From the NCBI GenBank assembly GCA_030697365.1, contig JAUYQH010000083.1, positions 1 through 51,148 on the forward strand: a stretch of 51,148 bases of DNA, given 5' to 3'. Below the pieces are notes generated by a model. That model did no database searches. It was not told the DNA's origin and worked only from the letters and a program-made list of their open reading frames with translations. This stretch comes from Novosphingobium sp. Lineage in GTDB: Bacteria > Pseudomonadota > Alphaproteobacteria > Sphingomonadales > Sphingomonadaceae. The translations under genes and the position numbers were made by a program. Shown here piece after piece: positions 34,053 through 41,324 of the stretch (its first letter is position 1; each line of letters opens with the position of its first letter).

Positions 34053-35549
34053 TCATTCGGGCGGAATAGACGCGTCCTGGGGGGGTGTGTCAACGGTTCG
34101 GGTGGCCAGCGGCACAGGATCGGGGTCGAACGACCAATCCCAGATTTTCCCCTTCACCCGGCGGTAGTTAACTTCCGAATCGTAGAGCGGCCCGGCATCG
34201 AGCCCGAGATCCTCGGCTTCCGCCTTGCCCATCGCCGCGAGCAGGCTGAATCCGGCGACATAGGCATTGCGCCGTGCGGTAACTAATTGGACCTGGGCGC
34301 GGAGCAACTCCTGCTCGGCATCGAGGATATTCAGAATCGTCCGGTTGCCGACGGTGTTCTCTGCCCGCACTCCTTCAAGGCTTAGCGCGGCAGCATCGAC
34401 CGCCACCTGGTTCGTAATGATGATCGAAGATGCCGCCTGGTACGAAGACCATGCGCTGCGCACCTGGGCGATCACGTCGCGCTCAACCGCGATCTCGGTC
34501 TCATAAGTCGCTGCGGCCTGGGCCTGGGCGCGGCGTTCCTGCGCAGCGGGACGGCCGCCCTGAAAGATCGGAATCGTCGCACGGACCCCTGCCTGCGCGG
34601 TGGTCGCGGTCTGGGCAACACCGACCCCGATGTTTCCGCCCAGCGTGTCGAGGTAGTTGATATAGTCGGCATTGGTGAAGACGCTGACCCTCGGCAGGCG
34701 CCCCGACCCGGCGACCTCGATGTCATAGCCGGCGGCTTTGCTTCGCTCTTTCGCGGCGATCAGGTCGGGATTGTCGGTCAGCGCCACGGCTTCGGCGTCT
34801 TCGACTCCGGCGGGCAGCCCCGGCAGCGGCGGGGGTGGTTGGAGATCGATTGGTGGCTTGCCGACGATCTGGATATACCGTTCGCGGCTTGCGATCAGGT
34901 TGGCCTGTGCCGAGCGGGCATCGCCGCGGGCCAGCGCCAACCGCGAATTCGACTGAGCGACATCGGTGCGGGTCAGGTCGCCGATCTCGAAGCGGTCGCT
35001 CGCCGCCTTGAGGTTGACCTCGAGCACGCGGACGTTGTTGGCGGAAAGCCCGACGATCGCCTGGTCGCGCAGCACGTCCATGTAGGTGGCGACCGCCTGG
35101 GTGAACACCGAGGCCTCGGTCCCGCGCAAATCGGCCTGTCCGGCCTCGACCCGCGTCTTGGCCGCGCGCACCAAATTCCTGACCGCACCGCCCGAATAGA
35201 TCGGCACCCCCAGGTCGATCCCCGCGCCTATCAGCCGCTTGGGTGCGGTGAAATTGTTCGAGCTCTGCTTGAGGAACTCGATTCCCTGCGCATCGGCGTT
35301 GACCGAGGGCAGTCCGTCGGCGCGCGCGATCGGCACGCCTTCGTCGATCCCGCGCTGCTGCGCCCGCGCGCCGAGCAGCGTCGGGTTGGACTGGTAGGTC
35401 GCCACAAGCGCATCGCGCAGCGTATCGGGGCTGGCGGCGGCGGGCACAGCGGCCAGCGCCGCGCCGGCCAGCAGCGCCGCCTTCAGGCCGCCTGGATCGG
35501 GAAACGCGCGGCGCACTGCCTCAGAAGCTCCACTTCGCAGGCAGCGCAT
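34053..35549 (-). CDS. TolC-family outer-membrane channel protein
   Basis: The trimeric outer-membrane exit duct for type I secretion or efflux. About 498 residues: a signal-like stretch LKAALLAGAALAAVPAAAS (near residues 22-40), then two outer-membrane efflux (OEP) repeats with long helical segments (ALVATYQSNPTLLGARAQQR; AAKTRVEAGQADLRGTEASV; LLRAQVQLVTARRNAYVAGF). The substrate pump genes are not adjacent. The ATG at 35549 lies 29 bases inside the PIMT 3' end, so the two are probably one transcript. Confidence 0.9.
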   Translation of the reverse strand: MRCLRSGASEAVRRAFPDPGGLKAALLAGAALAAVPAAASPDTLRDALVATYQSNPTLLGARAQQRGIDEGVPIARADGLPSVNADAQGIEFLKQSSNNFTAPKRLIGAGIDLGVPIYSGGAVRNLVRAAKTRVEAGQADLRGTEASVFTQAVATYMDVLRDQAIVGLSANNVRVLEVNLKAASDRFEIGDLTRTDVAQSNSRLALARGDARSAQANLIASRERYIQIVGKPPIDLQPPPPLPGLPAGVEDAEAVALTDNPDLIAAKERSKAAGYDIEVAGSGRLPRVSVFTNADYINYLDTLGGNIGVGVAQTATTAQAGVRATIPIFQGGRPAAQERRAQAQAAATYETEIAVERDVIAQVRSAWSSYQAASSIIITNQVAVDAAALSLEGVRAENTVGNRTILNILDAEQELLRAQVQLVTARRNAYVAGFSLLAAMGKAEAEDLGLDAGPLYDSEVNYRRVKGKIWDWSFDPDPVPLATRTVDTPPQDASIPPE

Positions 35550-36138
35550 ATGCGGCGAGCGGAGCAAAGTCCGCTTCGCCCAGCGTCAGGAACCCGACCG
35601 CGCCCGCCGCCTTGCGCCCGGCCGCCAGCCGGGTGACGCCGCGCTCGATCAGCCCGGTGACGACCCGGCCCCCATCCGCCAGCCGTGCGGCGAGGGCATC
35701 GGGCAAATTTTCGATAGCGCCGTCGATCAGCAGCAGGGAGCAGTCCTTCCCCGCGGGGGTTTCGCCCGGCGCGATCGCTTCGAGCGTTCCCACCAGTGGT
35801 TCGATCAGCGCGGCGAGATAGCCGCTGCCGCCATCGACCAGCAGCGCGTGATCGGCCAATGTGGGGGCGGCCTCCATCAGCATCAGCCCGTGGCTCAGCG
35901 CGGGGGCGAGCACCCGTCCGCCGCCCAGTGGAACCGCGCGGTCCATGTAGGCCACTGCACGGGCGCTGGCGGGAACGAAATCTTCGCGCCGCACGCGATT
36001 GAACGCGGCGAGCACCACGGCGTCGTTGACCCCGCTCGGCCGCAACTGGCTGTCGATCATCGCGCGCCGCGCCGCGTCCATGGTTGCGGCTGGCATGGTC
36101 GCGGCGGCATCCTGCGCCGGTTCGGTCAGCACCGTCAT
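35521..36138 (-). CDS. protein-L-isoaspartate O-methyltransferase family protein
   Basis: A SAM-dependent methyltransferase of about 205 residues. AMIDSQLRPSGVNDAVVLAA and AVPLGGGRVLAPALSHGLML are N-terminal family motifs, followed by the Rossmann SAM motif ALLVDGGSGYLAALI. True PIMT methylates damaged isoaspartyl residues, but this alphaproteobacterial type next to tolC often lacks proof of that activity. The ATG at 36138 is used; an upstream in-frame start adds unrelated residues. Confidence 0.85.
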   Translation of the reverse strand: MTVLTEPAQDAAATMPAATMDAARRAMIDSQLRPSGVNDAVVLAAFNRVRREDFVPASARAVAYMDRAVPLGGGRVLAPALSHGLMLMEAAPTLADHALLVDGGSGYLAALIEPLVGTLEAIAPGETPAGKDCSLLLIDGAIENLPDALAARLADGGRVVTGLIERGVTRLAAGRKAAGAVGFLTLGEADFAPLAAYALPAKWSF

Positions 36139-36307
36139 CCTGAAAAAGACCCTCACGCGCCCCGCTGGCTTTGGCTGTATTGCACGAACAATACACCGGG
36201 GCAATCGGGGATGTATCTAAGCGAAGCCCGCGGACGCGCCAAGCGCTTCTTGGCAGCACCCGACCGGGGGGGTATGCCGTTGGTCGATGGCAGCAGGAGG
36301 GCGAGCG

Positions 36308-36796
36308 ATGGGCGAGATGGTGACGATCCGCGAGGCGGACCTGGTCGAGAGCGTGGCGGACGCGCTCCAGTACATCTCGTACTTCCACCCGATGGACTTC
36401 ATCCGTGCGCTGGGCGACGCATGGGAGCGCGAGGAGAACCCCGCGGCCAAGGATGCAATGGCGCAGGTCCTTGCCAACAGCCGGATGTGTGCCGAAGGGC
36501 ACCGCCCGATCTGTCAGGACACCGGGATCGTCAACGTCTTCCTCAAATGGGGCCAGAACTGTCGACTCGAGAGCGACAAGAGCATGCAGGAGGTCGTCGA
36601 TGAAGGCGTCCGCCGCGCCTACAACAATCCCGAGAACAAGCTGCGCGCCTCGATCGTCGCCGACCCCGCATTTACCCGCCGCAACACCCGCGACAACACC
36701 CCGTGCGTGCTCAACGTCGAATTCGTGCCGGGCAGTACCGTCAGCGTCGATGTCGCGGCCAAGGGCGGGGGCAGCGAGAACAATTCAATTTTCTAG
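36308..36796 (+). CDS. class I fumarate hydratase, N-terminal part (gene interrupted by TAG)
   Basis: The first 162 codons of an iron-sulfur (class I) fumarase, which interconverts fumarate and malate in the TCA cycle. ATG at 36308 follows AGGAGG at 36295-36300. It includes RPICQDTGIVNVFLKWG with one cluster cysteine and PCVLNVEFVPGSTVSVDVAA, and reads up to KGGGSENNSIF before the TAG at 36794-36796. The family normally has a K-rich SENKSKF here and continues. The C-terminal part follows in the same frame (36797-37834), so this is one interrupted gene, not two. The break is not at the known alpha/beta subunit boundary. Confidence 0.85.
   Translation: MGEMVTIREADLVESVADALQYISYFHPMDFIRALGDAWEREENPAAKDAMAQVLANSRMCAEGHRPICQDTGIVNVFLKWGQNCRLESDKSMQEVVDEGVRRAYNNPENKLRASIVADPAFTRRNTRDNTPCVLNVEFVPGSTVSVDVAAKGGGSENNSIF
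36782..36796 (+). other. AT-rich tract ending in an in-frame amber codon
   Basis: AATTCAATTTTCTAG has three G/C in 15 bases, in very GC-rich surroundings. It replaces the codons expected for the conserved Lys-Ser-Lys-Phe-Val/Ala stretch of class I fumarases and ends in TAG. It may be a mutation cluster or an assembly/base-calling artefact. Confidence 0.7.
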
Positions 36797-37834
36797 ATGA
36801 TGAACGCCAGCGATTCGTTCGTCGACTGGGTGCTCGAAACGATCCCCACGATGGGTGCCGGGTGGTGTCCTCCGGGCCAGATCGGCATCGGCATCGGCGG
36901 GACCGCGGAAAAGTCGCTGCTCCTCGCCAAGGAATCGCTGATGGAGGAGATCGACATCCACGAGCTCAAGGAGCGCGGGCCGCAGACCGACACCGAGAAA
37001 CTGCGGGTCGAACTCTACGACAAGATCAACGCACTGGGGATCGGCGCGCAGGGGCTGGGCGGGCTGACCACGGTGCTCGACGTCAAGATCAAGGAATGGC
37101 CGTGCCACGCCGCGGGCAAGCCGGTGGCAATGATCCCCAACTGCTCGGCCACGCGCCACGCGCACTTCACGCTCGACGGATCGGGGCCGAGCTTCCTCGA
37201 ACAACCCAACCTAGACGACTGGCCCAAGGTCGACTGGGCGCCCGACGCGGCGGCGCGGCGGGTCGATCTGGACAATTTGACGCAGGAAGAAGTGTGCAGT
37301 TGGAAGCACGGTGACCGGCTGCTGCTCAACGGCGCGATGCTCACCGGGCGCGACGCCGCGCACAAGCGGATTCAGGACATGCTGGCGAAGGGCGAGGAAC
37401 TGCCCGTCGATTTTCGCGGCCGTGCGATCTACTATGTTGGCCCGGTCGATCCGATCATGGGCGAAGTGGTCGGCCCCGCGGGTCCCACCACCGCCACCCG
37501 CATGGACAAGTTCACCGACATGATGCTCGGGCTCGGGCTGCTGGTGATGATCGGCAAGGCCGAACGCGGGCAGGGCGCAACCCAGGTCATCGCCGAGCAC
37601 AAGGTTGCCTATCTGATGGCGGTAGGCGGCGCGGCCTATCTCGTCGCGCGGGCGATCAAGGAGTCGAAGGTGGTGGGGTTCGAGGACCTCGGGATGGAGG
37701 CGATCTACGAGTTCCGGGTCAAGGACATGCCGGTGACCGTCGCAGTCGACGCCGCGGGCAACAACGTCCACCAGCTGGCGCCAATGGTGTGGAAGGAGCG
37801 GATTGCAAAGGAAGGGCTGTTGGAGAAGGCGTAG
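36797..37834 (+). CDS. class I fumarate hydratase, C-terminal part (same frame, after TAG)
   Basis: Continues the fumarase frame directly after the amber codon: ATG ATG follows the stop at once, so a restart is possible (TAGATG), but the upstream ribosome site is weak. It has 345 residues, including DWVLETIPTMGAGWCPPGQIG, PNCSATRHAHF with a cluster cysteine, HGDRLLLNGAMLTGRDAAHK (about residue 340 of the whole) and YYVGPVDPIMGEVVGPAGPT. Together the two parts (509 codons) are the usual fumarase length. Cluster cysteines and catalytic motifs look intact, so only the break is abnormal. Confidence 0.85.
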   Translation: MMNASDSFVDWVLETIPTMGAGWCPPGQIGIGIGGTAEKSLLLAKESLMEEIDIHELKERGPQTDTEKLRVELYDKINALGIGAQGLGGLTTVLDVKIKEWPCHAAGKPVAMIPNCSATRHAHFTLDGSGPSFLEQPNLDDWPKVDWAPDAAARRVDLDNLTQEEVCSWKHGDRLLLNGAMLTGRDAAHKRIQDMLAKGEELPVDFRGRAIYYVGPVDPIMGEVVGPAGPTTATRMDKFTDMMLGLGLLVMIGKAERGQGATQVIAEHKVAYLMAVGGAAYLVARAIKESKVVGFEDLGMEAIYEFRVKDMPVTVAVDAAGNNVHQLAPMVWKERIAKEGLLEKA

Positions 37835-37848
37835 CGCGCCGCACACCC

Positions 37849-40224
37849 TCAGCCTCTTAGCACCGCCCCCAGCTTCGTCGCCGCGGCTACTATGCGCTCG
37901 CTGATCGCCTTGAGTTCGGCCTCGTCGTAGCTTTTCTCGCCCGGCTGGAGCGTGACTTCGACCGCCAGCGATTTCTGCCCTTCGGGCACGCCTGCCCCGC
38001 GGAAGTCGTCGAACAGGCGCGCGCCGACGATGTTGGCCTTGTCGCTGTTGCGCACCGCGCGGACGAGATCGCCTGCGGGAAGCGCAGCCGGGACCAGGAA
38101 CGCGAAGTCGCGGATGATCGCCTGTAAAGCGGGCGGGGTATAGGCTGGGCGGGCAAAGCCGGCGGCTTTGCGCGCCGGGATCGCATCGAGGAAGAGCTCG
38201 GCCATGGCTACCGGGCCATCGAGACCGAACGCCCGCGCGATGGCGGGGTGGAGCATCCCGAAGCGCGCCAGAACGGTCTTCGGCCCAAGCCGCAGCGTCG
38301 CCGACTGCCCGGGGTGAAACTGCGCTCCAGCCTCGCCCATGACCTGGAGATTATCGACCGGGGCGCCCGCCTCGGCGAGCAACGCCAATGCTTCGGCCTT
38401 GGCGTCGTAGGCGTCAAACGATTGCGCCTTGCCGCTCGCCCAGCCGCGCGCAGCACGCTCGCCCGCCAGGACGAGTCCCAGCGTCGGACGCTCTCCATCG
38501 GACAGATAGCGCCGCCCGATCTCGAACAGCCGCACGCTTGCCGCGCCGCGATCGAGGTTGCGGCGCGTGGCGGAAAGCAGCCCGGGGAGCAGCGAGGGGC
38601 GCATGATCTTGAGGTCCTCGCTAATCGGGTTGGCAAGGCTCCACGCGCCAGCACCGAAGGCTTCGGCCTCGGCCTCGCCAATAAACGACCACGTGATCGC
38701 CTCGACGTTTCCACGCGCCGCCGCGGCCCGCCGCACGCGTCGCTCGAGCGACTGCGCGGGCGTGGCGGTGGGGTGGGCAACACCGTCTGCACGCGGCAGC
38801 GGAGTGGAAGGAACCTTGTCCAGCCCGTGGATGCGGACGACTTCCTCGACCAGGTCGGCCGCGCCGTCGATGTCGGGGCGCGAGCCGGGGGCGGTGACGA
38901 CCCAGTGCGTTTCTCCCTCGACCACCGCAAATCCCAGCGATTCCAGTATTTCGCGCTGGCGCGGTGGCGTGACGTCGACCCCGCCGAGCCGCGCGCACAG
39001 CCCAGGATCGTAGCTCACCGTGTGCTGCGCGGAGGGTGGCGCCCCGGCACGGACGATCTCCGAGGCCTCGCCGCCGCAGATTTCCAGGATCAGCGCGGTC
39101 AGCAATTCCAGCCCCGGTTCGACGAACCCTGGATCGACCCCGCGCTCGAACCGGCTGCGCGCGTCGCTGGTCAGCACCAGCGTCTGCCCGGTGCGCGCGA
39201 TTCGCGCCGGATCGAAGTAGGCGACCTCGAGCAGGACGTCGCGCGTCGTTTCCGAACAGCCTGAATGCTCGCCCCCCATGATCCCGGCGATGTCATGCAC
39301 CCCGGATTCGTCGGCGATCACGGTCATTTCGTGGTCGAGCAGGTAGTGCTTGCCGTTGAGCGCGGTCACCCCCTCGCCGTCCCTGGCGCGCCGGGCCACA
39401 ACCGCTCCCGTCAGCTTGGCCAGATCGTAGGCGTGCGCCGGACGGCCCCAGCCGAGCATCAGATAGTTGGTTATGTCGACCAGCGCCGAAATCGGCCGCT
39501 GCCCCGCGCTTTTGAGCCGGGCCTGCATCCAGTCGGGGGAGGAGCCGTTGCGGACGCCGCGTATGACCCGGCCGAAGAACGCGGGGCAGCCGTCGGGATC
39601 GTCGGTGCGGATTTCGGTCGGGCAGGGGAAGGCACCGGCAACCGGCTCGATCGCGCGCGGCCTGAGCGTGCCCAGCCCCGCCGCGGCCAGATCGCGAGCG
39701 ATGCCATGGACTCCCATGCAGTCGGGGCGGTTGGGCGTAATTGCCACGTCGAACACCGGGTCCGAACCGGCAAAGTCGGCGTAGGCCGCGCCGACCGGCG
39801 CGTCGGCCGCCAGTTCGATGATCCCTGCGTGATCGTCCCCCAACTCGAGTTCGCGGCTCGAACACATCATCCCGTTCGATTCGACCCCGCGAATCGCGCT
39901 CTTCTTGAGTTCGAAGCCGCCCGCGGGCACGATCGCGCCCGGCAGGCCGAGCACACCGATCAGACCCGCGCGCGCGTTGGGCGCGCCGCACACCACCTGG
40001 AGCGGCTGGCCGTCCCCGGCATCGACGCTCAGCACCTGCAACTTGTCGGCATTGGGATGGCGTTCGGCGGTCAACACGCGGGCAATCTTGAATCCGGCAA
40101 GCCGTGCGGCTGGATCCTCGATACCCTCTACCTCGAGCCCGATCGCAGTGAGCTTCGCGGCGATCTGCTCGATGCTGGCATCGGTATCGAGAAAGTCCTT
40201 GAGCCAGGAGAGCGAGAACTTCAT
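37849..40224 (-). CDS. pheT: phenylalanyl-tRNA synthetase beta subunit PheT
   Basis: Forms the alpha2-beta2 enzyme that charges tRNA-Phe. Of 791 residues: [21 protein letters not shown]-terminus; a tRNA-binding OB domain (about 40-150, [20 protein letters not shown]); the B3/4 editing domain (RKFDITP-like [20 protein letters not shown]); the B5 domain; the core; and the C-terminal FDX-ACB domain ending in KLGAVLRG. The start at 40224 overlaps the pheS stop by four bases (ATGA). A longer open frame upstream is inside pheS and is rejected. Confidence 0.96.
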
Positions 40225-41324
40225 GCGCGCGCTCCTACGCCTGTGGACAGCGTCGGGACGTCGAGCGCGGAGAAGCCGTAGTGCCGTAGCCAGCGCAGAT
40301 CGCCGTCGAAGAAGGCGCGCAAGTCGTCCATCGCGTACTTGAGCATCGCCAGTCGATCGACCCCGACCCCGAACGCAAAGCCTTGCCATTCGGCAGGATC
40401 GAGCCCGCAGAACTCGAGCACGCGCGGGTTGACCATGCCGCTGCCGAGCAGTTCCATCCACCCGTGCCCCGGATCGTCCCCGCTTCCGCCGAGCACGCGT
40501 CGGCCGCCGACCTCCTCCCAGCCGACATCGACTTCGACCGATGGCTCGGTAAACGGGAAATAGCTCGGCCGCAGCCGCAGGACGATGTCGTCGCGCTCGA
40601 AGAACGCCTTGAGGAACGTCTCCAGCGTCCACTTGAGGTGGCCGAGATGGATACCCTTGTCGATCACCAGCCCTTCGATCTGGTGGAACATCGGCGTGTG
40701 GGTGGCATCGCTGTCCGACCGGTATACACGACCGGGCGCGATGATCCGCACCGGCGCGCCTTGCGACACCATCGTGCGGATCTGCACCGGCGACGTATGC
40801 GTTCTGAGCAGCATCTTGCCACCCCCGGCAGCCATCTGGTCGGGGAAATAGAAGGTATCGTGCATCGCCCGCGCGGGATGCGTTTCGGGCATGTTGAGCG
40901 CGGTGAAGTTGTGCCAGTCGTCCTCGATCTCGGGTCCGGTGGCGACCGCGAAGCCCATGTCGGCAAAGATTTCGGCGAGTTCGTCCATTACCTGGCTGAC
41001 CGGATGGATCGCACCGCGGGGCGTCTCGCGGGCAGGCAGGGTGAGGTCGAGCGTCTCGGTGGCCAGGCGCTCATCGAGTGCGGCGGCTTCGAGGGCGTCC
41101 TTGCGCGCGGTGAGCGCAGCGGTCACGCCTTCGCGCGCCGCGTGAATCCGCGGGCCTTCGACCTGGCGAACTTCGGGCGGCATCGCCCCCAATGTCTTGA
41201 GCAGCGCCGATATGCTGCCCTGCTTGCCCAGCAGGGTCACGCGCAGCGCCTCGAGCGCCATCAGATCGGGCGCGGCAGCTATGCTGCGGTCGGCCTCGGC
41301 CGCCAGGGTATCGATATCGCTCAT
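40221..41324 (-). CDS. pheS: phenylalanyl-tRNA synthetase alpha subunit PheS
   Basis: The catalytic subunit of PheRS. Of 367 residues: the N-terminal coiled coil ([22 protein letters not shown]), the class II motif 2 [25 protein letters not shown] core ([18 protein letters not shown]) and motif 3 [19 protein letters not shown] at the end. It reads leftward into pheT with a four-base overlap. No leader peptide was identified upstream in the gap to the AraC gene. Confidence 0.96.

Follow-up and report, generated by a model that had tools for sequence, protein, structure and literature searches.

A TAG-interrupted class I fumarase frame in a Novosphingobium assembly most likely reflects a local sequence error

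The window, the whole 51,148-nucleotide stretch of Novosphingobium sp. DNA analyzed here, contains at 36308-37834 (+) a 508-residue class I fumarate hydratase frame that, on translation, carries a single internal stop. The interruption of the frame by TAG was confirmed. We give a probability of about three in four to the patch of altered bases around this codon being a local sequencing or assembly (consensus) error, with the rest of the class I fumarase gene intact. An artefact is the most likely reading, instead of a new kind of enzyme, with a recent real allele as the main rival, and with readthrough or a split enzyme being unlikely. Local error was favored because the changes were absent from an otherwise identical protein, P0001; because they were substitutions without a change in length, confined to 35 bases, that break the only fumarase found; and because the same assembly also breaks genes of complex I (NuoL) and branched-chain amino-acid synthesis (IlvD). 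Of the four explanations offered by the original prediction, sequencing or assembly error was the one best supported, based on the comparison with P0001.

The positions of the fumarase pieces, the flanking genes, and the other interrupted genes are given in Table 1. The fumarase frame had been described as complete except for a TAG that is followed directly by ATG ATG, and both the sequence and its translation bore this out. Class I fumarate hydratase is expected to carry PF05681 and then PF05683; P0001 has both domains in full, and in the window they extend over the two pieces. The cysteines C69, C187, and C279 aligned with cysteines of the Leishmania fumarase, where we take them to be the cluster ligands; all of them were present in the window, but divided between the two pieces. 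Third-position GC of the two ORFs was 0.85 and 0.88, so the gene overall looks normally coding. With the TAG at codon 163, the frame does not form the one uninterrupted chain seen in Sphingomonadaceae relatives.

Table 1. Positions of the fumarase pieces, their neighbors, and the other mid-gene TAG codons
Feature	Position	Strand	Remarks
PCMT-domain gene	35521-36204	-	upstream of fumarase
N-terminal fumarase piece	36308-36796	+	translation; 162 codons and TAG; holds C69; matches PF05681 profile positions 2-145
Patch of private bases (36784, 36789, 36790, 36794, 36806, 36818)	36784-36818	+	private versus 29 relatives; changes residues 159, 161, 163, 167, 171
In-frame TAG of fumarase	36794-36796	+	codon 163; read from the sequence
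C-terminal fumarase piece	36797-37834	+	345 codons and stop; open from ATG 36797; holds C187 and C279; matches PF05681 155-269, then PF05683 1-203
Phenylalanyl-tRNA synthetase beta gene	37849-40632	-	downstream of fumarase
NuoL, in-frame TAG after TTC	L123:18681 (contig C9)		both halves match consecutive parts of the family model
IlvD (dihydroxy-acid dehydratase), in-frame TAG after TTC	L130:1075 (contig C16)		both halves match consecutive parts of the family model
RDD-like membrane protein gene, TAG in variable loop	L131:2601 (contig C17)	-	family name assigned by eye

The sequence around the stop was compared with fumarase loci of the same genus. Thirty-six genomes were searched and 29 yielded a locus. 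All 29 loci read through the TAG site without interruption, with K-S-K-F-K in 28 and K-S-R-F-K in one, so that lysine occupied the TAG position in each; a comparison with relatives had been proposed as a check. Immediately before the TAG, the window reads N-S-I-F where the same-genus loci read K-S-K-F (28/29) or K-S-R-F (1/29). The composition of this run was judged against the fetched part of the assembly, taking the final 150 codons of each of 611 coding-like ORFs. Among 85,540 codon-aligned 15-mers, only 2 contained 12 or more A/T, which makes the AT-rich run before the TAG exceptional. The original prediction was right that an AT-rich tract altered the conserved K-S-K-F to NSIF, but not in limiting it to 12 bases: residues 167 and 171, which lie 3' of the stop, also differed from P0001 and from nearly all relatives, and the altered patch is wider (Table 1), with substitutions spread over 35 bases and the length unchanged. 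Against the genus alone, however, the patch was less distinct. Of 378 conserved residues, 36 were changed in the window and 5 of these fell in the patch, and among the 34 bases private to the window in 36584-37063, 6 lay within the 35-base patch. The lineage of the window is divergent and the patch does not stand alone in a genus-only comparison. As a separate observation, private changes at conserved residues of the frame were many up to residue 280 and nearly absent over 281-469, which could hint at a mosaic gene.

P0001 is an uninterrupted 508-residue fumarase encoded on a 6,563-base contig. It was identical to the window frame at 503 of 508 positions, and the differences were found only at 159, 161, 163 (the stop), 167, and 171, all five within 13 residues (159-171). 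Of 10 million random draws of five positions from 508, with replacement, 27 were grouped as tightly as this. The comparison with P0001 is free of the lineage noise seen in the genus comparison. A near-identical sequence without the change thus exists, as judged at the protein level only; P0001 may belong to a sister strain, or the same organism may have been assembled a second time. The same data bear on the main rival, in which a genuine, very young multi-base mutation produced the patch, and a fumarase-null allele segregates in the population beside the P0001 allele. The two pieces showed no other decay relative to P0001 at the protein level, as would be expected of a very young lesion. Such an allele would nevertheless need several substitutions crowded into 35 bases while the rest of the protein stayed unchanged, and no template for them was found in the assembly. 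We considered this alternative unlikely, although the most serious of those weighed. Two specific routes to the patch were discarded. Templated replacement or gene conversion was rejected as, with up to 2 mismatches allowed, the assembly contained no second copy of the AT-rich 16-mer, and a mobile-element scar was rejected as the window frame and P0001 are equal in length. A search of public genome contigs, where records of the own genome may be excluded, returned 0 matches to the exact 30-mer.

We further examined what a true break would cost. The assembly to which the window belongs, as contig C187, comprises 206 contigs and 4.16 Mb, with 96.43% completeness and 3.72% contamination. Searching with the C-terminal piece found no other class I fumarase in this assembly. 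The proposed search of the genome for fumC was carried out as well and gave nothing above the cut-off: two profile matches scored 47 and 45 bits versus a cut-off of 664.75. A true fumarase break would be costly, because neither a second class I fumarase nor a FumC over the cut-off was found. This lack of a backup speaks against a null allele, as does the fact that NuoL and IlvD would need to have been broken in the same lineage. In favor of such an allele, a published article states that fumarase-less mutants are viable in some bacteria (PMC10602362). FumC itself was patchy in the genus, with 50 of 99 sampled genomes (own included) passing the cut-off. Several genomes at 99-100% completeness (e.g. 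G004, G024, and G067) gave weak FumC matches only, so living on class I fumarase alone seems ordinary in Novosphingobium. A genuine break would cost the assembly the single fumarase found in it, or would mean that the enzyme is made in an unknown way.

One such way is a two-chain enzyme, in which the two pieces would be made separately by stop-restart at TAG ATG ATG and would assemble into fumarase. The ATG ATG straight after the TAG and the match of each piece to its own part of the family were consistent with it. The position of the cut, however, was not. It falls inside PF05681, between profile positions 145 and 155 of 270, instead of at the PF05681/PF05683 boundary, which upheld the earlier statement that the break is not at the known two-subunit boundary. 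The cut also parts C69 from C187 and C279, and K159, a residue shared with the Leishmania fumarase, is altered in the window. Just before ATG 36797 there was no Shine-Dalgarno-like word, leaving the restart codon without one. Nor was a split relative found among the 29 same-genus loci, every one of which reads through the site, and the best 120 of 8,000 scored database proteins were all single chains of 480-541 aa. The two-polypeptide fumarase offered by the original prediction was not supported by these results, and we regard it as extremely improbable.

A second way is readthrough, with an amber suppressor decoding the fumarase TAG as an amino acid to give the full-length enzyme. In a wider set of 109 loci (29 same-genus and 80 named), of which 108 matched the motif scan, a sense codon stood at the TAG position in 108/108. 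The residue was lysine in 74 of the 108 and variable in the others, so lysine was not universal there, while among the best 120 of 8,000 scored database proteins, P0001 included, lysine was found in 120/120. Among 40 tRNA genes found, none had a CUA anticodon; since none was called tRNA-Ile, Leu-TAA, Ala-TGC, or Val-TAC, the set is incomplete and the missing CUA tRNA is weak evidence, as a suppressor could be absent from the assembly. The stops ending the 611 coding-like ORFs were TAG in 120, TGA in 405, and TAA in 86. TAG is therefore an ordinary stop here, terminating 120 of the 611 ORFs, which speaks against suppression, and suppression would leave the four neighboring changed residues of fumarase without account. 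Taken together, these data did not support the amber suppression raised earlier, and it is very unlikely.

We further investigated whether other genes of the assembly were interrupted. A reference-free survey covered 1.67 Mb in 120 sequences, window included, and returned 4,892 stops with 60 open codons on either side, of which 29 were coding-like on both sides (11 TAG, 10 TGA, and 8 TAA). Seventeen of these were read in detail and 12 from short context. By eye, 25 of the 29 were gene junctions or shadow frames and 4 were mid-gene, all TAG: fumarase, NuoL, IlvD, and the RDD-like gene. A second filter passed 16 stops, 7 of them without a nearby start; the 7 included NuoL, IlvD, and RDD, not fumarase, and the remaining four were judged junctions or shadow frames. 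At the NuoL stop, lysine was present in 28/28 relatives. Of 253 conserved sites in NuoL only residues 349 and 351 differed, and as alanine at 349 also occurs in the closest listed protein, P0241 (AAFK being found in 2 of 120 listed proteins), the TAG is the only lesion-like change there. For IlvD, four relatives with the motif found had lysine (2) or arginine (2) at the stop, and the own assembly contained just one further IlvD-family match, a distant one (34% identity, contig C90). Neither piece of the RDD-like gene matched an NCBIfam family. The NuoL and IlvD breaks suggest an error-prone assembly.

In three of the four mid-gene cases (fumarase at 36791-36796, NuoL, and IlvD) the TAG was preceded by TTC, a pattern noticed after the fact. 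The error reading does not account for this recurrence, as random error would not predict a shared TTC. The shared TTC-TAG, together with lysine at the TAG position in NuoL (28/28) and fumarase (29/29 same-genus) and lysine or arginine (two each) in IlvD, makes a faint case for lysine-inserting readthrough. In a specific form, a lysine-inserting suppressor located in the missing part of the assembly would decode the TTC-TAG (Phe-Lys) steps of fumarase, NuoL, and IlvD. We hold this to be highly improbable; if true, a single switch at the level of translation would govern the TCA cycle, complex I, and branched-chain amino-acid synthesis. A motif-dependent error at TTCAAG was tried and rejected, as TTCTAG was not enriched (63 versus 627 TTCAAG). 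Searching the whole assembly with a pattern that required G or C at third positions, and was therefore blind to fumarase itself, gave 32 matches. All were covered, with 14 loci read, and no clear new mid-gene case emerged, with L352 scoring weakly positive on both sides.

Under local error, the preferred explanation, coverage here was probably thin, and a few poor reads, or even one, would have set the consensus. The private bases crowd into 36784-36794 and become sparser rightward (36806 and 36818), as might be left by a minus-strand read failing toward its 3' end. A review describes MEGAHIT as rescuing some coverage-1 k-mers (PMC8021871), which gives poorly covered sequence a way into contigs. 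On this reading, the bacterium would produce a normal single-chain [4Fe-4S] fumarase. Several observations weigh against error. The site lies deep within a 51-kb contig, a comparison with the genus alone does not single out the patch (6/34 private bases and 5/36 changed conserved residues), P0001 may be a separate strain and was compared as protein only, and NuoL appears changed at a single codon, not a cluster. Our search of the literature for metagenome-assembled genomes with in-frame stops or consensus errors, for clustered Illumina errors, and for an amber fumarase found nothing relevant. As a likely error, the fumarase break serves as a warning. In-frame TAG codons cut at least three conserved genes of this assembly (fumarase, NuoL, and IlvD), and claims of gene loss need read support.

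In comparison with known systems, PF05681 and PF05683 stand in the window in the same order as in the single-chain class I fumarate hydratase from Novosphingobium and relatives. Among the matches listed, the best named ones were from Novosphingobium, and the window frame was 88-92% identical to the best listed one-chain relatives other than P0001. Unlike them, it is interrupted at codon 163 and has changed residues at 159, 161, 167, and 171, and no listed relative is interrupted. The two separate open frames of the window cover the domains that two-subunit class I hydro-lyases carry on an alpha (PF05681) and a beta (PF05683) chain. In PDB 7xky, the separate chains A and B match residues 16-285 and 322-490, placing the boundary between the domains, whereas the window is cut at residue 163, inside PF05681, and shows no break between PF05681 and PF05683. 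The third comparison is with local consensus errors in fragmented draft or metagenome assemblies. The recurrence of TTC-TAG in other genes of the assembly is not accounted for by a plain consensus error. The window shares with such errors the clustered substitutions, the unchanged length, and the absence of the changes from a near-identical protein on another contig, and its assembly, with 206 contigs and 3.72% contamination, resembles fragmented drafts.
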